64,000 nucleotides of DNA from NCBI RefSeq assembly GCF_020510705.1, contig NZ_CP075184.1, positions 3,038,001-3,102,000 of the forward strand, read 5' to 3'. The stretch is from Acidovorax radicis (GTDB lineage Bacteria; Pseudomonadota; Gammaproteobacteria; Burkholderiales; Burkholderiaceae_C). A program made the translations under genes and the position numbers. The notes under the pieces are model-generated. The model was not told the DNA's origin. It did no database searches and saw nothing but the letters and a program-made list of their open reading frames with translations. Positions within the stretch are counted from its first letter, which is position 1; each line of letters opens with the position of its first letter. This document shows, one piece after another, positions 31,171 to 53,915 of this stretch.

Positions 31171-32484
31171 TCAATCCGGGTCGCGCGCAAGCCTTATTCC
31201 GGCAAACTGCCACCGCGCCGTGGCAGGAAAGAAGTTGCGATAGGTCACCCGCTCATGCCCTGGCGGCGTGGCACAAGAGCCGCCCCGCAGCACGTACTGA
31301 TTGACCATGAACTTGCCGTTGTACTCACCCACGGCGCCCTCGGCCACCCGAAACCCAGGGTACGGCGCGTAGCTCGACTGCGTCCACTGCCAAGCCACAC
31401 CAAAAAATGCTGACAACGCGTGGGTGGTTGCCGGTTGCGGCGGGGCCACCCCCATGCCATCTGCGGCCAGGCATGGGCTTTCTCTTTCTGCCTGTTCCAG
31501 CGCGTGCGCGGCAGCGTGCTCCCACTCGGCCTCGGTCGGCAAACGTGCGCCAGCCCAACGGGCGTAGGCGTCTGCCTCGTAGTACGACAGGTGCACCACA
31601 GGCAACGCAGCGTGCAATGGCTGCAGCCCCCGCAAGGTGAACTCAGACCAGCCACCGTCTACACGCGGCCAATACAGGGGCTGCGTCAAACCCAGACTGG
31701 CACGCCAGTCCCAGCCTTCCGCCAGCCAGAGTGAAGGATCGAGATACCCACCGCCCTCCACAAAATCCACATACTCGCCGTTGCTCACCAGGCGCGACGC
31801 AAGAGCAAAGGGCTGAACGAACACCCGGTGGCGCGGGCCCTCGTTGTCAAAGGCAAACCCGTCCCCTGCGTGGCCCATGTCGATGAGTCCCCCGTCAAAG
31901 GCGTGCCACACCAAGGCAGCCGCAGTATCCGCGGCGCCAGACACACCGCAAGAACCCGGTACCCCAGGCACAGCGGATACGTCTGCCCCCTCGGTGCCTG
32001 TGTGATACGCGGGGCGCAGCGGGTTGCAAAACAGCAGGTGCTTGATGTCGGTGAGGATCAGCTCCTGGTGCTGCTGCTCATGCTGCAGGCCCAACTCCAC
32101 GAGTGTGCAGATGGCCGCATCCTGTGCCACGGCCGGTAGCAGGCGCGCCATGCGCTGGTCCACCGACGCCCGGTAAGCCAGCACATCGGCCAGGGACGGG
32201 CGCGTCAGCAAGCCGCGCTGCGCACGTGGATGCCGGTCGCCCACACCGTTGTAATACGAATTGAAAAGGACCCTGAACGCCGGGTCGAATGGCGCAAACC
32301 CTGGTTCATGGGCTTGCAGCACAAAGGTTTCAAAAAACCAGGTGGTGTGTGCGAGATGCCATTTGGTGGGGCTGGCATCGGGCATGGATTGCGCACCACA
32401 GTCTTCGGCCGACAACGGCGCGGCCAAGGCCAGCGAGCGGGCGCGAACGGCTGCATAGCGCACAAGCAATGGTGATGTTGTCAT
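31171..32484 (-). CDS. egtB: ergothioneine biosynthesis protein EgtB (sulfoxide synthase)
   Basis: Non-heme iron enzyme of 437 residues that joins hercynine to a sulfur donor (cysteine or gamma-glutamylcysteine) with O2. The N-terminal DinB-like domain supplies the iron triad: a His in TKWHLAHTTWF and the two in HEQQHQELILTD. The C-terminal formylglycine-enzyme/sulfatase-modifying domain ends NQYVLRGGSCATPPGHERVT. The frame is open to 32661 within egtD, but MTTSPLLVRY at 32484 is the sensible start. It lies 13 bases after egtD on the same strand, making an egtDB operon. Confidence 0.92.
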   Translation of the reverse strand: MTTSPLLVRYAAVRARSLALAAPLSAEDCGAQSMPDASPTKWHLAHTTWFFETFVLQAHEPGFAPFDPAFRVLFNSYYNGVGDRHPRAQRGLLTRPSLADVLAYRASVDQRMARLLPAVAQDAAICTLVELGLQHEQQHQELILTDIKHLLFCNPLRPAYHTGTEGADVSAVPGVPGSCGVSGAADTAAALVWHAFDGGLIDMGHAGDGFAFDNEGPRHRVFVQPFALASRLVSNGEYVDFVEGGGYLDPSLWLAEGWDWRASLGLTQPLYWPRVDGGWSEFTLRGLQPLHAALPVVHLSYYEADAYARWAGARLPTEAEWEHAAAHALEQAERESPCLAADGMGVAPPQPATTHALSAFFGVAWQWTQSSYAPYPGFRVAEGAVGEYNGKFMVNQYVLRGGSCATPPGHERVTYRNFFPATARWQFAGIRLARDPD

Positions 32485-32497
32485 GTGGGGCCTTGCA

Positions 32498-33430
32498 TCA
32501 AGGACGGGCATGCACCACGGCAAACCAGCCGCGTTCGTCGGTCCATGCCTGGGCATGCCCAAACCCCGCGCGCGCCAACATGTCGGTAAACACGGACAGC
32601 GGGTATTTGTAGCTGTTTTCGGTATGAATACGTTCGCCTGGTGCAAACATGCGCGCCCCACCGGGCCAGCGCACCTGCACGGCCTGTATCGATTCCAGGT
32701 GCATTTCTATGCGGGACTCTTGCGCGTTGAAAAATGCGCGGTGCTGCCAATGGTCGATATCGAAGTCGCTGCCAATTAAACGGTTCACATGCGTGAGCAC
32801 ATTGCGGTTGAAGGCGGCCGTGACGCCAGCCGCATCGTCATAAGCGGCCTCTAGCACGGCCACGTCCTTGGGCAAATCAATACCGATGAGAAGGCCGCCG
32901 TCTTCATCGACCAGCGCACGCATATATGCGAGCAACTGCAGTGCGTGGGGTGGGTCAAAGTTACCGATGGACGAACCGGGGTAGAACACCAACCGGCCCG
33001 AGCGCGGTATGTCGTCTGGCAAATCGATGCCCTGCGTAAGGTCGCCGCCCACGGCGCGCGCATCCAGGCCCGGAAATTCGTCCCGCAGGCCTTGCACGGC
33101 CGACTGCAAAAAATCTGCCGAGATGTCCACCCCCACAAAACAGGCGGGCTGCACCAGGCGACACATGCTGCGGGCCTTCTGGCAATTGCCGGCACCCAGC
33201 TCGATGAGCGTGCGCCCGGGGCCGATGACCCGCGCAATGTCCTCGGCATGCCACTGCATCAACGCCGTTTCGGTGCGGGTGGGGTAATACTCTGGCAGCC
33301 GCGTGATGGCTTCAAACAGCTCTGAGCCACGCTGGTCATAAAAGTACTTGGGGGAAATGCGAGCCGGTGTGAGGCGCAGGCCGTCGGTGATATCGGTGTG
33401 GTGGGGCAAGGGCATGAATCGATGCGTCAT
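32498..33430 (-). CDS. egtD: L-histidine N(alpha)-methyltransferase EgtD
   Basis: SAM-dependent trimethylation of histidine to hercynine, first step of ergothioneine synthesis; 310 residues. Signatures are SPKYFYDQRGSELFEAITRL, YYPTRTETAL, the SAM loop LIELGAGNCQKAR and FYPGSSIGNFDP. The histidine-binding region NRNVLTHVNRLIGSDFD is intact. The open frame extends to 33583, but the conserved part and a plausible ATG begin at 33430; another ATG at 33415 is possible. Stop and egtB start are 13 bases apart. Confidence 0.92.
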   Translation of the reverse strand: MTHRFMPLPHHTDITDGLRLTPARISPKYFYDQRGSELFEAITRLPEYYPTRTETALMQWHAEDIARVIGPGRTLIELGAGNCQKARSMCRLVQPACFVGVDISADFLQSAVQGLRDEFPGLDARAVGGDLTQGIDLPDDIPRSGRLVFYPGSSIGNFDPPHALQLLAYMRALVDEDGGLLIGIDLPKDVAVLEAAYDDAAGVTAAFNRNVLTHVNRLIGSDFDIDHWQHRAFFNAQESRIEMHLESIQAVQVRWPGGARMFAPGERIHTENSYKYPLSVFTDMLARAGFGHAQAWTDERGWFAVVHARP

Positions 33431-33638
33431 ATCGCGCGGACAGGCCGCAGGTTCATCCAACGGAAAGCGCCTGACGCCAGTGCACCTGGGCACCCCGCCC
33501 CAACCACCCCCGAGGCCAGGCAATAAACGCCATGACCATGGCGCCATTGTGCGGCGAGCTTGTGGCGCCTGTATGTAGGTCAATTCCCCATGCGCCCCGT
33601 CAACGGCGCAGGCGTTTCAGGCGACCTCCCCCAATGAC

Positions 33639-35387
33639 TCAGCGCCCGTAAACGCGCAGCCCCAAGAGCACCAGCACCGCGACCAGCAGTATGACGGTAG
33701 CCGCCTTCCAGAAGACCACCGGGTTGCGCTCCACGAGCGGAACGCGCCGGCTGCGGTGAAACTGGGGACCCGGTGAATACAGGTCGTGCAGAAACTCGGA
33801 CATCGCCTCCTGGCGCTTGGCCGGATCCGGGCTCAGGGCTTTGTGCAGCACGCCATCCAGCCAGTGCGGCAGTTCAGGGCGCAAGTGCCGCACAGGGATA
33901 TACCGCAGCTTGTTGACATCCGCAGACGTCCGCACCCGCACGACCTGCAACCCATAAGGCAGTTGTGTCGTCAGCATCTGGTAGGCCAGCACCGCCAGTG
34001 AAAACAACTCAGACCGGGCCGATCCTTCCAGGCCCACGAAATATTCTGGCGCGGTGTATTGCAGGGAGCCCCTGATCGGGTCGCCCCTGTCACCCGTGTG
34101 AGGCAACAGCCCTTCGGCCAGGCCCGCAACCCGGGTGGAACCGAAGTCGATAAGGCGCACGGTGCCGCTGCGGTCAATCATCACGTTCTCAGGTCGCAGG
34201 TCCTGGTGCAGCATCTCTTTGCTATGAAAGGCCTGCAACCCCTTGGCGATCTGCGCCACAAGATCACGGACGGTATCAAGATCGGGGCGGTGGTGGTCGA
34301 TCATCCATTGCGCCAATGTCTGCCCTTCGACAAACTCCATCGCCACGTAGACATGCTGGCGGGGCCGGTTGCTTGCATGCGGCCGCAATACATAGGGGCT
34401 ATGGATACGCCGCGCCACCCACTCCTCCAGCAAAAGCCCGTCAAGGTAATCTGCATCACCCCCCAGGTCCGTGGACGGCGTTTTCAGCACCACCTGCTGC
34501 CCCGTCAGATCGTCCATCGCCAGGAACACGTGGCTGCGTGCACTGGCATGCAATTCGCGCACAACGGTGTAGCCCTCAAAACACACCCGTGGCGACAGCG
34601 GGGGCGGCAGTGCCAGCCCCTCGCGCAGCGCATACAGCCTGTAAGGCTGGGCCTCGGGCAGTGCCTCTATCCGCACCAGCTGCACGGTCATGTCGTCCTG
34701 CGCACCGCGCGCCAGCGCTGCGCCCACAAGCGACTGGGCGGCGCGGTCAAAGTCGTCGGGAAACTGCTGCAGGGCCGCCCACACGGCTGCGGCATCAAAG
34801 TGGGCATGCGCGCCATCGGTCGCCAATACGTAAATGGCGCCGACTTCTGCGGGCACGCAGGCGTAGTCAATCTCTATGTGGGCGCTGGCGCCCAGGGCCC
34901 GCGCCAGATACGACTCCACCGATGACAGGTGTACGCGGTGGTCTTCGGTCAACGGCTCCAGCGACTGCGCATGCAGGCGGTAGATTCGCGCGTCACCCAC
35001 ATGCAGCACATGCACCTCGCGCCCTTTGAAAATAAGCGCACTAAACGTGCAGACGTAGCCCCTGTCCTTGTCAAAGCGGGCATGGCTGCGCATGGTCTGT
35101 GCATGCAACCACGCATTGGTGGCACCCAGCACCCGCTGCGCAGAGCGCCGCACCGACCAGGCGTCTGAGGTCGCGTAATAGTCTTCCAGAAAGCTGTGCA
35201 CCGCGGCAGCGCTGGCCTCCTGGCTGACCGGGCTGGAGCCGATGCCGTCGGCCAGCGCCACCACAATGCCTTTGGCGCTCAGAAGCGGCTCGCCGGGCAG
35301 CATCGCGCCATGAAAGTCCTGGTTCACGCCCTTGACGCCCGCACGCGAGTGCTGGCCGAGCGTGACGCGCAGTTTTTCAGTCGTCAT
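33639..35387 (-). CDS. PP2C-type phosphatase fused to a Ser/Thr protein kinase, membrane-anchored
   Basis: A 582-residue protein. Residues 1-240 are a PP2C phosphatase with GVNQDFHG, VALADGIGSS, LHVGDARIYRLH and AQDDMTV metal-site motifs. Residues 270-540 are a Hanks-type kinase with Lys in QQVVLKTP, catalytic loop MLHQDLRPENVMID and RLIDFGSTRV (DFG), plus GSLQYTAPEYF. A single C-terminal membrane helix (AATVILLVAVLVLLGLRVYG) follows. The kinase and phosphatase can thus oppose each other in one chain. A similar Ser/Thr kinase gene accompanies nirBD in the Pseudomonas aeruginosa nitrate-assimilation cluster (PA1782), so a role in nitrite/nitrate assimilation is likely. Its target is unknown. 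Confidence 0.88.
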   Translation of the reverse strand: MTTEKLRVTLGQHSRAGVKGVNQDFHGAMLPGEPLLSAKGIVVALADGIGSSPVSQEASAAAVHSFLEDYYATSDAWSVRRSAQRVLGATNAWLHAQTMRSHARFDKDRGYVCTFSALIFKGREVHVLHVGDARIYRLHAQSLEPLTEDHRVHLSSVESYLARALGASAHIEIDYACVPAEVGAIYVLATDGAHAHFDAAAVWAALQQFPDDFDRAAQSLVGAALARGAQDDMTVQLVRIEALPEAQPYRLYALREGLALPPPLSPRVCFEGYTVVRELHASARSHVFLAMDDLTGQQVVLKTPSTDLGGDADYLDGLLLEEWVARRIHSPYVLRPHASNRPRQHVYVAMEFVEGQTLAQWMIDHHRPDLDTVRDLVAQIAKGLQAFHSKEMLHQDLRPENVMIDRSGTVRLIDFGSTRVAGLAEGLLPHTGDRGDPIRGSLQYTAPEYFVGLEGSARSELFSLAVLAYQMLTTQLPYGLQVVRVRTSADVNKLRYIPVRHLRPELPHWLDGVLHKALSPDPAKRQEAMSEFLHDLYSPGPQFHRSRRVPLVERNPVVFWKAATVILLVAVLVLLGLRVYGR

Positions 35388-35488: not shown

Positions 35489-36301
35489 TCATGCCACCTT
35501 GCGCTTGGGTGCCGTTTTGTAGTGGGTGGAATACAGCGTAGCCCCCACAAAGGTCAGCCCACCCACCACGTTACCCAACACGGTAGGCAACTCATTCCAG
35601 ATCAGGTAGTCCAGCAGCGTGAATTTGCCGCCCAGCATCAGGCCTGTGGGGAACAAAAACATGTTGACGATCGAGTGCTCAAAGCCCATATAGAAGAAGA
35701 CCATCACGGGCATCCACATGCCAATGGCTTTGCCCGACACGGTGGTGGACATCATTGCGGCGACCACGCCAGTGGACACCATCCAGTTGCACATCACGGC
35801 GCGAATGAACAGTGTGAGCATGCCAGCTGCACCGTGTGCTGCGTAGCCCAGGGTGCGACCTTCGCCGATGTGCCCCAGCTTCTCGCCCACCGCGCTGGGG
35901 GCCTCGGTGAAACCGAAGGTGAAGATGATGGACATGAACAAGGCCACCGTGAGCGCACCGGCAAAATTGCCGCAGAAGACCAAGCCCCAGTTGCGCATCA
36001 CGCCAGCCCAGGTAGCCCCCGGGCGTTTGTCAAACACCGCCAAGGGGGCGAGCGTGAAAACCCCCGTCAACAGATCAAACCCCAACAGATAGAGCAAGAT
36101 GAAACCCACCGGGAACAGGATTGCACCCGCCAGCGCATTGCCGGTATTGACAGTCACGCTGACCGCAAACGCGGCAGACAGCGCGAGGATGGCACCAGCC
36201 ATGTAGGAGCGGATCAGCGTGTCGCGGGTAGACATCAGCAGCTTGGATTCACCGGAATCGACCATCTTGGTCACGAACTCGGCAGGGGCGAGATAGGCCA
36301 T
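35489..36301 (-). CDS. formate/nitrite transporter (FNT) family channel, probable nitrite uptake
   Basis: A 270-residue inner-membrane protein with six helices in the FNT pattern. It begins MAYLAPAEFVTKMVDSGESK and has the family loops LLGFDLLTGVFTLAPLA, CGNFAGALT and MGFEHSIVNMFLFPTG (the second FNT signature with the central His). The frame is open to 36520, but the ATG at 36301 with AAGGAAAT before it starts the conserved protein. It lies between the NasR gene and the kinase/phosphatase gene next to nirBD, so nitrite rather than formate is the likely cargo. It corresponds to NirC-type channels of enterobacteria, not to the cytochrome NirC at 15559. Confidence 0.9.
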   Translation of the reverse strand: MAYLAPAEFVTKMVDSGESKLLMSTRDTLIRSYMAGAILALSAAFAVSVTVNTGNALAGAILFPVGFILLYLLGFDLLTGVFTLAPLAVFDKRPGATWAGVMRNWGLVFCGNFAGALTVALFMSIIFTFGFTEAPSAVGEKLGHIGEGRTLGYAAHGAAGMLTLFIRAVMCNWMVSTGVVAAMMSTTVSGKAIGMWMPVMVFFYMGFEHSIVNMFLFPTGLMLGGKFTLLDYLIWNELPTVLGNVVGGLTFVGATLYSTHYKTAPKRKVA

Positions 36302-36666: not shown

Positions 36667-37971
36667 TCAGGGCCGGTTGGCTGATGGCAACGCGAACGTC
36701 AGATCAGGCAGGGACAGCGTGGCCTCTGCCACCTCCACAAGACGCCGATTTTGGTCCATGGAGGTTTTTTGCAGCACCCGAAACGCGACCTCTTCATTCA
36801 TGCCAAGCCGGGCCATCAGCACACCTTTGGCCCGCTCGATCACCTTGCGTTCGTTGAGGGTGCGGCGAGCGGCTTCGAGTTCGGCCTCCATGCTCGCCAT
36901 GCGGCTGGACTGGGCCCTCAAGAGCTCCACCAGCGAGGCGGTGTCAACCCCTGTGCCGGCCCTGCCCAAGGGCTCAGGCAAAGCCCCAGGTGCGGCAGAC
37001 GTACTAAAAAATCGGTCCACCGATTGCGTGCGTGGCGGCGGATTGTTGCGCAGGCCGTGCAGCATGCCACGCGAGTCAAGCAGGTCTTGCTGGGCTTGCG
37101 CGATGCGCACCGCGCAGTCTTCGCGAAGACGTTTGACCAATTCAAACTGAATTTGCCACAGTGCATCGATGCGGCCAGAGCACACGTCAAACCAGGCATC
37201 GATAAGGTCACTGTCCAGTGGCGCGCCTGGTTTGGCCACACACAGCGTGCGCCGCAGACGCTCAAGCTGCGCCACACCGGCGGACAGTTGCGCCTGCTCC
37301 CAACGGGCGCGCAGCACGGGTTCTGCAAACTCGCCGAACACACGCAGGCTGCGCTCCTGGGCGTCGATAAGGTGCAACACCCGCTGTTGGTGCTCTTCGC
37401 TCATGCTGCCCGTCGCATACAGCAGCGCGCCCACCGCACGCTCCTGTGCCGCCTCTTCCTGGGCCTGCACCAGGTGGAGCAAGGCCACCAACAGGCGCGA
37501 CACGCTGGGCAGGTCTGCCGCGTCGGCCACATGAAACACCAGCTCGACCAGGCCGGCAATCAGATGGCTGTAGGCAGCCACCGAATCATGGGGACTCATG
37601 GCCTGGCGCTCGATCTGGCCGCGCAGCGCAGGGAGCGATTCGATACCGAGCAGCGCCCACGCCATCAGAGACAGCGTCTTGGCCGTGGCCCCTTGCGCGG
37701 GCTCGGAATGCTCGGCAAAAACATCGCGCAGCCGTGCCTCCAGGGGGGCCACCTCGTCCACAATTTTGCGGCGCATGTCCACAAACCGTTGCGCGTTGGA
37801 TGCCAGATAAATGCCCGAGGCCCCGCGCTCGCGCTGCAGCCCCTGAATGAGTTGACCAATCACATCCACCAGCTCCGCACGGCGGGCTAGGCGGCCAACA
37901 GCATCAATCTCCAACTGCCTGGAGCGCAGCACCAGCTGGGACACAGACAAGGGCAACACCGTTTCGTACAT
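36667..37971 (-). CDS. nasR: NasR-type nitrate/nitrite-sensing ANTAR antiterminator
   Basis: A 434-residue cytoplasmic regulator. Residues about 40-300 are an all-helical nitrate- and nitrite-sensing (NIT) domain, seen as LIQGLQRERGASGIYLAS and LFHxxLR-like helices. The C-terminal ANTAR domain (about 365-425) contains LNERKVIERAKGVLMARLG and EEVAFRVLQKTSMDQNRRL, the RNA-binding three-helix bundle. In Klebsiella NasR binds leader RNA of the nas operon when nitrate or nitrite is present and prevents termination. The gene lies downstream of nirB-nirD on the same strand, so it may be autoregulated. ATG 37971 has CCAGGAATC upstream; the longer frame to 38097 is rejected. Confidence 0.9.
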   Translation of the reverse strand: MYETVLPLSVSQLVLRSRQLEIDAVGRLARRAELVDVIGQLIQGLQRERGASGIYLASNAQRFVDMRRKIVDEVAPLEARLRDVFAEHSEPAQGATAKTLSLMAWALLGIESLPALRGQIERQAMSPHDSVAAYSHLIAGLVELVFHVADAADLPSVSRLLVALLHLVQAQEEAAQERAVGALLYATGSMSEEHQQRVLHLIDAQERSLRVFGEFAEPVLRARWEQAQLSAGVAQLERLRRTLCVAKPGAPLDSDLIDAWFDVCSGRIDALWQIQFELVKRLREDCAVRIAQAQQDLLDSRGMLHGLRNNPPPRTQSVDRFFSTSAAPGALPEPLGRAGTGVDTASLVELLRAQSSRMASMEAELEAARRTLNERKVIERAKGVLMARLGMNEEVAFRVLQKTSMDQNRRLVEVAEATLSLPDLTFALPSANRP

Positions 37972-38015: not shown

Positions 38016-38354
38016 TCAAGCAACCGCCACACTGACGCGGCCACCGTCCACACGCACACCATGGGTACGAACCGATTGCCCGGGCACCTCCAGGCACTCG
38101 CCAGTGTGCAGGTCAAAATGGTTCTTGTACATCGGCGAGGCCACCACCACACGGTCTCCGAGCGTGCCGAGCAACCCACGGGCCAGCACGCTGGCCCCGG
38201 ACTTCGGGTCTACGTTGTCGATGGCAAAAAAACGACCGTCGCCAGTGCGAAAAACGGCGACGTGTTGACGGGCCACCAGTGCACACACGCCGGTGTCAGG
38301 GCAGATGTCATCCACCGCGCAAACGTCCGTCCAGGTCAGGGAATGATTTTTCAT
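38016..38354 (-). CDS. nirD: nitrite reductase (NADH) small subunit
   Basis: A 112-residue Rieske-like protein that partners NirB in assimilatory reduction of nitrite to ammonium. The fold is indicated by AVFRTGDGRFFAIDNVDPKS and ASPMYKNHFDLHTGECLE. As in other small NirD proteins the Rieske Cys/His ligands are only partly kept. The ATG at 38354 has CGGAG before it and lies 20 bases after the nirB stop; residues upstream of that ATG overlap nirB. This NirD is unrelated to the heme d1 protein NirD at 17089. Confidence 0.9.
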   Translation of the reverse strand: MKNHSLTWTDVCAVDDICPDTGVCALVARQHVAVFRTGDGRFFAIDNVDPKSGASVLARGLLGTLGDRVVVASPMYKNHFDLHTGECLEVPGQSVRTHGVRVDGGRVSVAVA

Positions 38355-38374: not shown

Positions 38375-40924
38375 TCAAGACAAGGCCAGGCTGAGCTTGT
38401 CGGGCGCTGGGGCTGCAGGTAGCGTGCGTTCGTCTGCACGGGCTGGACGAATCTGGCCGCGCTCTTGCACGAAAACCACATGCTCATCGGTTTGGTTGCT
38501 GTTGACGAAGGAGCGAAAGCGTTTGCGGGTTTCGGGGTCATTGACCGCCGTTTTCCATTCGCACTGGTAAGTGTTGACGATATGCTGCATTTGCGCCTCC
38601 AGCTCGTCGCACAGACCCAGACTGTCATGGACCAAAACGTCCGTCAGATATTCAAGGCCCCCTTCAAGGTTCTCGCGCCAGGTGCTGGTGCGCTGCAAAC
38701 GGTCTGCGGTGCGCACATAAAACATGAGCACGCGGTCTATCATGCGCACCAGATTTTCTTTGTTCAGGTCTGACGCAAACAGCTCAGCGTGGCGCGGCTT
38801 CATGCCCCCGTTGCCGCAGATATACAGGTTCCAGCCCTTGTCGGTGGCGATGATGCCGATGTCCTTACCCTGTGCCTCGGCACACTCGCGTGTGCAGCCC
38901 GACACGCCGAATTTGATCTTGTGCGGTGACCGCAGGCCCTTGTAACGATGCTCCAGCTCCACAGCCAAGCCCACGCTGTCGCCGACGCCGTAGCGGCACC
39001 AGGTGGAACCGACGCAGCTTTTGACAGTACGCAGCGATTTGCCATAGGCATGGCCAGACTCGAATCCCGCAGCGATCAGCTCCTCCCAGATCACCGGCAG
39101 TTGTTCGACGCGTGCGCCAAACAGGTCCACACGCTGGCCGCCAGTGACCTTGGTGTACAGGCCATATTTTTTGGCCACCTGCCCCACAGCAATAAGACCA
39201 TCTGGAGTCACCTCGCCACCGGGCATGCGCGGCACCACCGAATAGGTGCCATCTTTTTGAATGTTGCCCAGGTAGTAGTCGTTGCTGTCCTGAAGACTGG
39301 CGAGGTCCTTCTTCAGCACGAATTCGTTCCAACAGGATGCAAAAACACTGGCAGCCACGGGTTTGCAGACGTCGCAGCCCAAGCCCTTGCCATGCTGGGC
39401 CAGCAGTTGTTCAAAACTGCGGATGTTGCCCACGCGCACCAGGTGGTAAATCTCCTGGCGCGAATGCGCAAAATGCTCGCACACATGGTTATTGACCGCC
39501 ATGCCGAGGCGGGCCATTTCCATCTTCATGACCTGGGTGACCAACGGTACACAGCCGCCGCAGGTGGCGCCGGCCTTGTTGCAGGCTTTGATGCCCGCCA
39601 TGGTGGTAACACCGTCGCCCACAGCGGCACAAATCGCGCCTTTGGTCACGTTGTTGCAAGAACATATCTGCGCCGTGTCAGGCAAAACGTCCACCCCCAA
39701 GCCGGGCCTGGCGTTGCCATCACTCGAAGGCAGTATCAGGAACTCAGGCTCAGCAGGCAACGTAATGCCGTGGATCACCATCTGCAGCAGCGTGCCGTAT
39801 TCAGCCGCATCGCCAATCAACACAGCGCCCAGAAGTTTTTTACCGTCCTCACTAACGACGATCTTCTTGTAGACCTGGCGCCGCTCATCCACATACTGAC
39901 AAGCACGGCTGTGCGGCGTGCGGCCATGGGCGTCGCCGATGCTGGCAACGTCCACCCCCATCAGCTTCAGTTTGGTGCTCAGATCAGCACCCGCAAAAGA
40001 CGCCTCGACATCCCCCGCGATATGGCGGGCCGCCACGCGAGCCATGTCGTAACCGGGAGCAACCAGACCAAAGGTTTGCTCGCTCCAGGATGCGCACTCG
40101 CCAATGGCATACACATGGTGATCGCTGGTGCGGCATGTGTTGTCAATCGCAACGCCGCCGCGTGGACCGATAGCCAGCACACACTGGCGTGCCAGTTCAT
40201 CGCGAGGACGTATTCCCGCTGAAAAAACAATCATGTCGGTTTCGAGGTAAGAGTCGTCCGCAAACTTCATGCGGTGGCGTGCCCGAGCGCCGTCCGTGAT
40301 CTCTTGGGTGTTGCGGCCCGTATGCACCTGCACCCCTAGCGCCTCGATCTTGGAGCACAGCATGCGCCCGCCCCCTTCATCCACCTGCACCGCCATCAAC
40401 CGCGGAGCAAACTCGACCACATGGGTTTCAAGGCCCATGTCCCGCAAGGCTTTTGCGCACTCAAGCCCGAGCAGGCCGCCACCGACCACCACACCCGACG
40501 CCGACTTTGCGCCGCTCGCCTTCATGGCCTCCAGATCCTCGATCGTTCGGTACACAAAACAATGCGGCCGGTCGCGGCCGGGCACCTGTGGAACGAATGG
40601 GCTGGACCCTGTCGCCAATACCAGTTTGTCGTAAGCAAAGACCTCGCCGGTGACCGTCGTCACGGTGCGGATGCGCCTGTCTATGGAGGCAGCGCGTGTT
40701 GCCAGACGAAGAGAAAACCCCGTACGCTCAAAAAAACCCTCCTCCACCAGAGAGAGATCCTCAGCAGTGGTCCCACTGAAAAACGCCGACAGATGAACCC
40801 GGTCATAAGCGGGCCTGGGCTCTTCACACAATACCGTCACGTCCAGATCGGACAACCCGGTTTCCGCCAGGCTTTCCAGAAATTTGTGACCGACCATTCC
40901 ATGGCCAATAAGAACGATCTTCAT
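38375..40924 (-). CDS. nirB: nitrite reductase (NAD(P)H) large subunit
   Basis: Cytoplasmic siroheme enzyme of 849 residues that reduces nitrite to ammonium with NADH. Order of domains: FAD/NAD(P)H oxidoreductase (about 1-420) starting MKIVLIGHGMVGHKFLE; BFD-like [2Fe-2S] domain with ICSCNNVTKGAI and ATCGGCVP; then siroheme/[4Fe-4S] sulfite/nitrite reductase domains with CVGSTWCRYGVGDS and KFGVSGCTRECAEAQGKD, followed by ICGNGGMKPRHAELF. AGGAAGAG precedes ATG 40924. A 227-base leader with sigma-54 promoter and ANTAR-type hairpins lies upstream. Confidence 0.96.
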   Translation of the reverse strand: MKIVLIGHGMVGHKFLESLAETGLSDLDVTVLCEEPRPAYDRVHLSAFFSGTTAEDLSLVEEGFFERTGFSLRLATRAASIDRRIRTVTTVTGEVFAYDKLVLATGSSPFVPQVPGRDRPHCFVYRTIEDLEAMKASGAKSASGVVVGGGLLGLECAKALRDMGLETHVVEFAPRLMAVQVDEGGGRMLCSKIEALGVQVHTGRNTQEITDGARARHRMKFADDSYLETDMIVFSAGIRPRDELARQCVLAIGPRGGVAIDNTCRTSDHHVYAIGECASWSEQTFGLVAPGYDMARVAARHIAGDVEASFAGADLSTKLKLMGVDVASIGDAHGRTPHSRACQYVDERRQVYKKIVVSEDGKKLLGAVLIGDAAEYGTLLQMVIHGITLPAEPEFLILPSSDGNARPGLGVDVLPDTAQICSCNNVTKGAICAAVGDGVTTMAGIKACNKAGATCGGCVPLVTQVMKMEMARLGMAVNNHVCEHFAHSRQEIYHLVRVGNIRSFEQLLAQHGKGLGCDVCKPVAASVFASCWNEFVLKKDLASLQDSNDYYLGNIQKDGTYSVVPRMPGGEVTPDGLIAVGQVAKKYGLYTKVTGGQRVDLFGARVEQLPVIWEELIAAGFESGHAYGKSLRTVKSCVGSTWCRYGVGDSVGLAVELEHRYKGLRSPHKIKFGVSGCTRECAEAQGKDIGIIATDKGWNLYICGNGGMKPRHAELFASDLNKENLVRMIDRVLMFYVRTADRLQRTSTWRENLEGGLEYLTDVLVHDSLGLCDELEAQMQHIVNTYQCEWKTAVNDPETRKRFRSFVNSNQTDEHVVFVQERGQIRPARADERTLPAAPAPDKLSLALS

Positions 40925-41047
40925 GTTTTCTCTTCCTGCGATGGTCCGTGCGCCGCAAAATGCCGAGGCGGGATGCTTGCGTGGCCTGCCACCCAGGGCG
41001 ACCTGTCGCAACACATCTCACCGCAGCGCATAGCGCCTGCCGAGAAT

Positions 41048-41131
41048 GGAACAACCCAACGGCAAGCTCAAAGCTCCACCGTTCGTTTGGGGTTCCGCCA
41101 TCGTTAGCGGAGAATTTCAACCGGTCTGAAA
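41048..41131 (-). ncRNA. putative NasR (ANTAR) antitermination leader of nirBD
   Basis: Read on the minus strand. Hairpin P1 (41131-41115) has stem UUUCA/UGAAA and loop ACCGGU with one bulged G. After a three-base linker, hairpin P2 (41111-41094) has stem UCCGCU/GGCGGA and hexaloop AACGAU. Both loops have A at position 1 and G at position 4, the rule for ANTAR targets. A long imperfect hairpin (41096-41048; GGAAC/GUUCC, CCCAA/UUGGG, CGG/CCG) shares GGA with P2, so the two exclude each other. The T run after it is weak, so termination strength is uncertain. Structures were drawn by eye. Confidence 0.6.
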
Positions 41132-41161
41132 GCAGCTTCACTGACAGACTTCACCATGTTC

Positions 41162-41177
41162 AGCAAAATCTGTGCCG
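41162..41177 (-). promoter_or_regulatory. sigma-54 (-24/-12) promoter of nirBD
   Basis: On the minus strand the element reads CGGCACAGATTTTGCT, against consensus TGGCACGNNNNTTGCW. The essential GG and GC pairs are present with exact 10-base spacing. The predicted start is an A near 41151. This implies NtrC-type nitrogen control in addition to nitrate induction. Confidence 0.75.
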
Positions 41178-41299
41178 ATATGCCGACCCATGCAGATGCA
41201 TGGACGCGTACTGGTCGCGTTGACCTGCGCCATGGGCAGATACGGACACGCGAGCATCTGCGTCACGGATGATGTGCATCAATGCAGTGCGACCGCCGT

Positions 41300-41508
41300 C
41301 ACCAAATTGGGGAATTGCGCGCCGCTGGCCGGGTAGCGCGGGCCAGGCACCGTCGTTCTGCGTTGCCCCGCAAATTGGATGGCCGTCGGAAAGGCTGGGC
41401 AACGAGCGCGACATACCGCCTGCGGCGGCACGGCCTGGAGCGCACAACGCTACAACGTGCCACCGGCAATAGGCGCAGATCATTCCCGCGACGGGAATGA
41501 TCTTTTTT
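41300..41508 (+). ncRNA. candidate small RNA or attenuated leader, plus strand
   Basis: No ORF explains this stretch, yet it ends in a very strong intrinsic terminator (41478-41508). Upstream are a CTGGCC/GGCCAG hairpin (about 41325-41346) and a possible long-range pairing of CCAAATTGGGG (about 41303) with CCCCGCAAATTGG (about 41367). It may be an independent small RNA or the leader of the small gene at 41646. No clear -10 promoter element was found, so the 5' end is a guess. Confidence 0.4.
41478..41508 (+). terminator. strong rho-independent terminator without an upstream gene
   Basis: Perfect 11-base arms GATCATTCCCG and CGGGAATGATC with a three-base loop, then TTTTTT. It works only on the plus strand, where no coding gene lies within the preceding several kilobases. 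Confidence 0.9.
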
Positions 41509-41645
41509 GGTTTGCAATCACGCCCGAGTCGGGCAGACTGGGTGTACTGCAGTCGGCGCTTTGCCACGGTTCGGGCAATGGGGCAGGCCGCGCCTTAAAG
41601 ACAAGGCCCTACGACACACCAACTTTTAAATACGGATGGATCACC

Positions 41646-41852
41646 ATGAGCACCGAACGCAGGGAATCGGCCGACCGCCGCAGCGGCAAAGACCGCCGAG
41701 AGACAGAAGATGGCCCCCCAACCAGCTTTGAGCGGCGGCGCACCGTGGAAGCCCGGCAGCCCGAGTTGACGGAGTTGCACCTCAGCGAGGACGAACTCAA
41801 GGCGTTGGGTTTTGTGGAGGCACACAAACCAGACCCCGCAAAACCTGCTTGA
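41646..41852 (+). CDS. small Arg-rich hypothetical protein
   Basis: A 68-residue protein with a repeated basic/acidic N-terminal pattern (RRESADRRSGKDRRE, then FERRRT) and a C-terminal ELTELHLSEDELKALGF segment likely to be helical. I do not recognise a named family. The frame is supported by a coherent sequence and a bidirectional terminator 45 bases after the stop. It begins 137 bases after the strong terminator at 41478, so it might be subject to attenuation from that leader. Confidence 0.6.
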   Translation: MSTERRESADRRSGKDRRETEDGPPTSFERRRTVEARQPELTELHLSEDELKALGFVEAHKPDPAKPA

Positions 41853-53701: not shown

Positions 53702-53777
53702 TCCTCGATAGCTCAGTTGGTAGAGCGCCGGACTGTTAATCCGTAGGTCCCTGGTTCGAGCCCAGGTCGAGGAGCCA
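53702..53777 (+). tRNA. tRNA-Asn (anticodon GTT)
   Basis: A 76-base cloverleaf with acceptor stem TCCTCGA / TCGAGGA, D arm GCTCAGTTGGTAGAGC, anticodon loop CTGTTAA (GTT), T arm CCTGGTTCGAGCCCAGG, discriminator G and encoded CCA. Confidence 0.97.
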
Positions 53778-53839
53778 AGAATTTATGGGCACTGCATGTG
53801 TACGCGGGGCTTTTTAGTTAAGCATCAGGTACCGATCAT

Positions 53840-53915
53840 TCCTCGATAGCTCAGTCGGTAGAGCGCCGGACTGTTAATCCGTAGGTCCCTGGTTCGAGCC
53901 CAGGTCGAGGAGCCA
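53840..53915 (+). tRNA. tRNA-Asn (anticodon GTT), second copy and likely integration site
   Basis: Identical to the first copy except C for T at position 17 in the D loop. Its 3' half is overlapped on the minus strand by the end of a serine recombinase remnant. Confidence 0.97.

Follow-up and report, generated by a model that had tools for sequence, protein, structure and literature searches.

The nirBD leader of Acidovorax radicis controls the nirB-nirD-nasR-nitrite transporter cluster, in our estimate with high probability, by a proposed switch that joins a sigma-54 promoter to an ANTAR-responsive RNA. As judged from sequence and comparison, the leader carries a sigma-54 promoter, two tandem ANTAR hairpins (P1 and P2) and a long hairpin (P3) incompatible with P2, followed by nirB and a gene for a NIT-ANTAR protein. 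Under nitrogen limitation, NtrC and sigma-54 would begin transcription; when nitrate is missing, P3 would form and expression would halt, and in the presence of nitrate or nitrite NasR would bind P1 and P2, so that P3 is blocked and nirBD is expressed. Control of a nirBD leader by sigma-54/NtrC together with ANTAR binding is of a known kind, found in Pseudomonas (PMC12830290). The leader departs from that kind in three respects, namely the lack of a U-run at P3, the U.G-closed loops and a glutamine in the linked NasR subfamily. Of these, the change of closing pair and residue that is tied to the regulator is, in our judgement, the part most worth testing.

The nirBD leader and its gene cluster

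The window, i.e. the whole stretch of 64,000 nucleotides analysed, comes from a genome consisting of a single contig of 4,995,154 bases, and the rows closest to its nirB in a nirB tree are from Acidovorax. On the minus strand the gene order is nirB (40924-38375), nirD, nasR, a formate/nitrite transporter and a fused PP2C-kinase gene (Table 1). The start codon of the transporter is our choice, the open frame extending to 36520, as is the ATG of nasR. Counted from that ATG (37971), nasR begins 44 bases after the nirD stop (38016), and not 77 bases past nirB-nirD as stated in the first-pass annotation of this DNA, which had correctly named it as a NasR gene with NIT and ANTAR domains; both domains are found by Pfam match. 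The fused PP2C phosphatase and protein kinase (33639-35387), 3' of the transporter, has a relative in 28 of the 36 NasR loci described below. Elsewhere in the window, neighbouring genes at 31171-33583 carry DinB/FGE-sulfatase and histidine-specific methyltransferase domains and resemble what we take to be ergothioneine synthesis genes, and two tRNA genes with equal scores lie at 53702-53912, their starts 138 bases apart.

Table 1. Positions of the nirBD leader elements and cluster genes, numbered from the first base of the window
Feature	Positions	Strand	Evidence or remark
NtrC-like enhancer site CGCACTGCATTGATGCA	41275..41291	-	first base at -140, centre at about -132 from the predicted start
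Sigma-54 promoter CGGCACAGATTTTGCT (-24/-12)	41162..41177	-	GGCA-N7-TGC core invariant in 32/32 aligned leaders (window counted)
ANTAR hairpin P1 GTCTGTCAGT[GAAGCT]GCTTTCAGAC	41124..41149	-	U.G-closed loop, G1 and G4; covariation
ANTAR hairpin P2 TCCGCT[AACGAT]GGCGGA	41094..41111	-	U.G-closed loop, A1 and G4
Long hairpin P3 (GGAAC...GUUCC)	41048..41096	-	terminator position, no U-run; exclusive with P2
Strand B, degenerate copy GCGGTGAGAT	41015..41024	-	Acidovorax relatives have GCGGAGGGT, complementary to the P2 5' arm
nirB Shine-Dalgarno AGGAAGAG	40930..40937	-	sequence; largely single-stranded in the window by prediction
nirB, nitrite reductase large subunit	38375..40924	-	TIGR02374, 1095.7 bits
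nirD, nitrite reductase small subunit	38016..38354	-	TIGR02378, 116.8 bits
nasR (subfamily here called NasR1), NIT sensor fused to ANTAR domain	36667..37971	-	PF08376, 149.1 bits; PF03861, 75.2 bits
Formate/nitrite family transporter, same cluster	35489..36301	-	PF01226, 206.3 bits

The sigma-54 site has GG at -24 and GC at -12 with N10 between them, the exact spacing reported in the first-pass annotation, and transcription is predicted to start at about 41151. The NtrC-like site is the top scorer of the region with 8 of 10 half-site bases, a score that 19% of shuffles equal when the window is taken alone. Counting the window, 11 of the 22 closer leaders carry the exact word YGCACYGCATTGATGCR, which resembles the NtrC consensus, at -124 to -140, and looser forms occur in others. 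NtrC itself is encoded in the genome (619.1 bits, or 670.9 with an in-frame neighbour; cut-off 558.6), and the site upstream of the promoter is a likely, though weaker, candidate enhancer.

A search with the NasR protein yielded 36 loci, and in the DNA fetched for 32 of them a nirB match starts from the first residues of NirB. P2 was found by motif in 31 of these 32, the exception being L064 with a nirB-like gene just 37% alike; the leader alignment consists of those 31 loci and the window (32 rows), L064 having been excluded beforehand. Across P1 and P2, 87.4% of cells are paired, and 23 cells show double changes against 7.8 in shuffles, giving a covariation score of 0.150 against 0.079 that none of 500 shuffles reached; the result is similar in the 22 closer leaders. 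The inner five pairs of P2 form in all 32 leaders and the outermost in 31, and this near invariance means that P2 itself supplies no covariation evidence. The shape of P1 is well kept, yet the pair at columns 72-85 is broken in 17 of 32 rows. Loop position 4 is G in both hairpins of every leader, while position 1 is A in 18 and G in 14 leaders for P1, and A in 25 and G in 7 for P2. The A1 of the published A1/G4 rule is therefore not present in both loops of the window, where P1 has G1 and P2 has A1. The leader thus holds two tandem hexaloop hairpins, as ANTAR targets do, and its 12-base linker lies inside the range of 2-25 used in PMC8164766.

As a single sequence, the leader folds with an energy that is ordinary against shuffles (z of -0.61, -1.73 and -0.92), so the case rests on conservation and not on energy; the predicted probability of P2 in the free window RNA is 0.06. 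A search with 4227 Rfam models gave no family match to the leader on this strand, ANTAR included, and one weak M23 match on the opposite strand. That annotation had described two adjacent hairpins with A1/G4 loops. The second is P2 and is conserved in relatives, as is the long hairpin. The first, with loop ACCGGU, was abandoned: over 22 sequences it reaches 33.3% paired cells, where shuffles average 34.7%, and as written its loop has five or seven bases and makes no clean hexaloop. It overlaps the conserved P1 (41149-41124), so the two are mutually exclusive. In addition, four Variovorax-type leaders (L061, L063, L056 and L058) have a P1-P2 linker of 25-34 bases, apparently with an extra small hairpin; in parts of the published EutV work, a 20-base extension of the linker abolished antitermination. 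L058, from a metagenome assembly, keeps P1 and P2 and has seemingly lost P3, with nirB starting some 48 bases past the beginning of P2.

A covariance model of P1-P2 was built from 26 of the 32 leaders, leaving out L066 and L052, in which P1 is misaligned, and four long-linker loci. It gives one clear match in the window's genome (62.1 bits; the next is 20.8) and matches in 24 of 299 family genomes, and 22 of the 23 fetched loci other than the window's precede nirB. NasR (E<=1e-20) occurs in 75 of the 299 genomes, and in 21 of the 24 that are RNA-positive; the RNA-positive genomes lacking it at this threshold are G286, G362 and G377, and the match in G362 does not precede nirB. We use NasR1 for NasR proteins at least 48% identical to that of the window and adjoining nirB, with the exception of G266, in which nirB leader and NasR1 lie on different contigs. 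Leader and nasR share one contig within about 5 kb in 17 of 18 other sampled genomes having NasR1 and a nirB leader. In G457, of the window's own genus, neither an RNA match nor NasR nor nirB was found at the thresholds used. Moreover, nirB (E<=1e-100) is rare where NasR is absent, being found in 3 of 80 and 4 of 80 genomes, which together cover 160 of the 224 NasR-less genomes of the sample. A class-wide search with the RNA model matched 3 of 369 genomes, the window's own among them; at the other two loci, no nirB, nirD, nasR, transporter, kinase or nasT was found. Collectively, the promoter, NtrC, the dual hairpin, a NasR in the cluster and the tracking of the RNA with NasR are consistent with the earlier proposal that nitrogen starvation may control initiation and nitrate elongation, in which the position and loop of the first hairpin, and with them the A1 in both loops, had to be replaced.

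Loop-closing pairs and the ANTAR domain of NasR

The C:G closing pair selected by K. oxytoca NasR in SELEX and present in eut leaders is absent from both P1 and P2 of the window. Among nirB leaders linked to NasR1, both loops are U.G-closed in 48 of 50, some of these rows being near-copies, and P1 is C:G-closed in two. P1 was chosen in each leader by an automatic score; for L090 and L108 another register is preferred by eye, with the same closing pair.

In a first set of six nirB leaders without NasR1, P1 is C:G-closed in five, and both loops are so in two; in the sixth, L100, P1 is unreadable. A further set came from 40 genomes whose leaders the RNA model had not picked, namely G457 and 39 in which the only NasR is another one, and nirB was present in 9. 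Here three leaders (L158, L160 and L163) have C:G in both loops, although a second, lower-scoring P1 register of L163 would give U.G closure; L161 has U.G in P2 and an unreadable P1, and L164 is, as read by eye, an nrtA-type C:G leader with a U-run. No such hairpins were seen before nirB in L159 and L162, and no leader in L165 and L166, in which the DNA upstream of nirB resembles a transporter gene. Two (G286 and G377) of the seven nirB-bearing genomes among the 160 without NasR are already counted; the other five contain candidate hexaloops, not established as P1 or P2, with C:G closure in four, some beside differently closed ones, and in L172 a U:A-closed candidate beside a C:G-closed one. 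Among the genomes examined, some with an unreadable P1, no nirB leader without NasR1 was found to have U.G in both loops. The P1 closing pair is associated with NasR1 with Fisher p values of 2e-8 for all rows, 6e-8 without duplicates and 2e-5 for the family sample, the rows not being independent; the 8 C:G rows of the test are drawn from both leader sets. On the nirB tree, the C:G leaders, two NasR1 rows among them, are scattered, requiring 7 changes of which at least 3 are forced by starred branches, and the U.G leaders of Variovorax have a C:G group as their sister, with support 94/94.

Besides NasR, the window's genome encodes two further ANTAR proteins, each with a receiver domain, which in the NasT-like protein matches at 20.9 bits, under the Pfam cut-off of 30.2. 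The NasT-like gene lies near a gene for an NMT1-type binding protein (PF13379). We call this gene nrtA on the strength of the ATPase encoded two genes on, which matches TIGR01184, the model for the nitrate ABC transporter (341.5 bits, cut-off 291.8). The nrtA leader of this genome (L070:9245-9440, about 3565244-3565439) has a sigma-54 site followed by the hairpins GGGACC[AATGAC]GGTTCC and GACCC[AATGAC]GGGTT and a third, GGAC[AAAGGC]GTCC; it also holds GGACGCCTTTTTTG and a terminator-like GGACGCC-T6 stretch, and all three hexaloops are C:G-closed. A relative of nrtA exists in 27 of 28 chosen genomes. Of 26 nrtA leaders, 21 contain at least one hairpin pair with both loops C:G-closed, and the scan found no pair in 5. 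Chains of three hairpins occur in 8 of the 26. A second NasR subfamily, about 35-43% identical, adjoins nrtA in L144, L145, L147 and L149-L151, and both subfamilies occur together in some genomes (G266, G406 and G363). In L003/L071, a third ANTAR protein, with receiver and ANTAR domains, follows a histidine-kinase-like frame.

The window's NasR matches 4akk, a nitrate regulatory protein, at 1.4e-36. Compared by eye with K. oxytoca NasR, it keeps R340, K341 and K347 and has Arg for K345, Phe for W362 and Gln for R366; the change of K345 to Arg in the K. oxytoca protein behaved like wild type. The residue aligned with R366 is Gln in all 35 distinct NasR1 ANTAR domains. This set includes L064 as well as L106 and L107, two loci whose fetched DNA gave no nirB match. 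Arg occupies the position in all 11 NasR of the other subfamily, all 5 NasT-like domains and 5 more NasT-like rows outside any group. Gln is also found at this place in 1s8n, which we take to be Rv1626 of Mycobacterium. At the W362 position, 33 of the 35 NasR1 domains have Phe. According to the parts of PMC7496416 used here, R366A abolished RNA binding by K. oxytoca NasR, W362F binds RNA partly without nitrate, and NIT-ANTAR proteins never carry Phe at the W362 position. Arg168 of EutV, at the same place as R366, is well positioned for contact with an RNA ribose, and stem contacts in the EutV structure go to the backbone, as described in portions of PMC8934654.

We propose tentatively, and at rather less than even confidence, that two side-by-side ANTAR antiterminators are kept apart by one base pair: the Gln-bearing, nirBD-linked NasR would read U.G hexaloops and NasT or the nrtA-linked NasR would read C:G, with leaders being C:G where NasR1 is absent and the nirBD attenuator needing no U-run. 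The U.G closing pairs would then be a recognition mark of NasR1 separating its target from the C:G-closed nrtA leader, and the closing pair would act as a code insulating two ANTAR regulators in one cell. The residue part of this code is contradicted by one of two more distant NasR proteins (G098, L013; nirBD-linked and 32% identical), which has Gln at the key place and a leader whose hairpins are closed by G:C and C:G and none by U.G; our estimate was lowered slightly because of it.

There is close to an even chance that the U.G pair is instead a matter of phylogenetic inertia or a structural nicety, and that the nirB leader is served just as well by NasT or by a second ANTAR protein. NasR1 is a single subfamily with related rows, U.G occurs in P2 without NasR1 in five leaders (L085, L092, L093, L100 and L161), and this reading accommodates the two NasR1-bearing leaders with C:G in P1, the distant Gln-bearing NasR and the backbone contacts of EutV. 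It is opposed by the recurrence of the C:G state in several places of the nirB tree, including the group sister to Variovorax, and by the C:G closure of the nrtA leader in the same genome. In addition, closing-pair mutants that kept pairing lost normal eutP induction, as reported in part of PMC3369931.

U.G closing pairs are not mentioned in the accessible portions of PMC3369931, PMC8934654, PMC7496416 and PMC8164766, and in the last of these the words 'closing' and 'wobble' occur 0 times. No paper on them was found among the ANTAR-literature matches listed, which is weak evidence of novelty since subscription literature is not covered. An insulating code would matter because ANTAR proteins, found in many bacteria, recognise small hairpins that are much alike, which raises the question of how a cell with several of them avoids cross-talk. 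Here, the closing pair shifts with which regulator is present, as does one ANTAR residue in NasR1, making the question of specificity testable.

The long hairpin P3 and the off state

P3 folds at -19.3 kcal/mol and, in agreement with the first-pass annotation, shares GGA with P2. Its arms covary: they pair better with their own than with a swapped partner both in 22 sequences (-16.15 vs -13.24 kcal/mol) and in 29 (-16.19 vs -12.23 kcal/mol), with 0 of 2000 permutations in either case, kinship not being removed from these comparisons. The U-run expected of an intrinsic terminator does not follow P3 in the window, and a terminator scan of the minus strand from 40800 to 41700 found nothing, so that P3 is a putative stop. 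These results bear out the first-pass view that the competing hairpin lacks a good U-run and that the off-switch may differ from a classic intrinsic terminator, as hardly any relative has a U-run either. A T5 run lies between P2 and nirB in 4 of 49 distinct nirB leaders, that of L068 being inside P3, against 24 of 26 nrtA leaders (200 bases before nrtA). Most likely, P3 would be an attenuator independent of a U-run, working with the help of Rho or NusG or as an intrinsic stop of an unusual sort, and this is the least certain step of the mechanism. The nirBD leaders would also point to attenuation under nitrate control that dispenses with the classic terminator these bacteria use at nrtA.

It is improbable, but worth weighing, that the switch is mainly translational. 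The 5' arm of P2 (A) would then pair with a downstream GCGGAGG (B), a present or former ribosome site, or the leader would hide the nirB Shine-Dalgarno, with NasR freeing it. The complementarity of strand B (GCGGAGGGU) to the P2 5' arm beats chance in 25 of 47 distinct leaders (p<0.05). In 22 sequences, own A-B arms have a slight pairing advantage over swapped ones (12/2000) and the stretch preceding the Shine-Dalgarno favours its own partner (5/2000), the 29-sequence version of both tests being unusable owing to one row with empty segments. In L061 (Variovorax dokdonensis), strand B is the Shine-Dalgarno of nirB itself, beginning 14 bases before the ATG, and its predicted accessibility climbs from 0.02 to 0.43 once P2 is forced; in L067 the predicted rise is from 0.26 to 0.56, and over 54 leaders Shine-Dalgarno accessibility goes from 0.30 to 0.35 (p=0.006 by Wilcoxon test, with rows that are not independent). 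The missing U-run at nirB leaders also fits such a switch. In the window, however, strand B is degenerate, its complementarity being no better than chance (p=0.856), and the Shine-Dalgarno is already mostly free, with a predicted accessibility of 0.61 that reaches 0.66 when P2 is forced. Moreover, strand B lies 79-113 bases before nirB in most relatives bearing it, and the reading frame from B has no conserved start, stop or sequence. Because strand B is degenerate and the Shine-Dalgarno changes little in the window, attenuation at P3 without a U-run is considered more likely than translational control, which stays as a rival.

Three candidates were rejected in the course of this comparison. 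Strand B holds in Acidovorax relatives and fails in the window, and was dropped as a general feature; sequestration of the Shine-Dalgarno is weak in the window; and a short uORF near strand B, coupled to nirB, has a frame ending at the nirB start in 16 of 29 leaders, but an unconserved start, stop and peptide. The use of strand B as a Shine-Dalgarno in L061, unlike its position far upstream elsewhere, is a separate observation, and an intermediate or alternative translational switch may exist there.

An ordinary intrinsic attenuator at P3 with merely a poor U-run, as in classic nasF-type leaders, is likewise unlikely. A strong, covarying P3 overlapping the 3' arm of P2 is the layout of known ANTAR attenuators, but the scarcity of T5 runs at nirB against their abundance at nrtA indicates that these bacteria use U-runs elsewhere. 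Finally, chance hairpins beside an ordinary promoter, with which the unremarkable single-sequence folding would agree, are scarcely credible in view of the conservation and covariation, the one clear match in the genome and the co-occurrence with NasR.

Comparison with known systems

Passages of Ramesh 2012 place ANTAR targets before nitrite reductase genes, with Burkholderia among the matches. A close parallel is the Pseudomonas nirBD leader (NalA, known here by description), for which sections of the review PMC12830290 describe the same operon, initiation by sigma-54/NtrC and an ANTAR-controlled leader under NasT. The regulator differs: in Pseudomonas, the ANTAR protein NasT is held by NasS, whereas here a one-component NasR comes from the same cluster.

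The nasF/NasR system of Klebsiella oxytoca is similar in its NIT-ANTAR sensor (4akk) and in a dual hairpin before a nitrate-assimilation operon. However, the loops preferred by K. oxytoca NasR in SELEX have C:G closure with A1 and G4, whereas the loops here are U.G-closed with G1 in P1; nasF has an intrinsic terminator, whereas the nirBD leader lacks a U-run; and two key residues differ, R366 being replaced by Gln and W362 by Phe. In the same genome, the nrtA leader near nasT likewise has a sigma-54 site followed by tandem hexaloop hairpins, and differs from the nirBD leader, with its U.G loops and no U-run, in its C:G loops, its third hexaloop and its terminator-like stretch. EutV/eutP of Enterococcus, as far as covered in parts of PMC3369931 and PMC8934654, also has a dual hairpin in which the second is exclusive with a downstream hairpin and G4 is present in both loops, but it uses a two-component ANTAR protein, conserved closing pairs with C:G on top and a U-run terminator.
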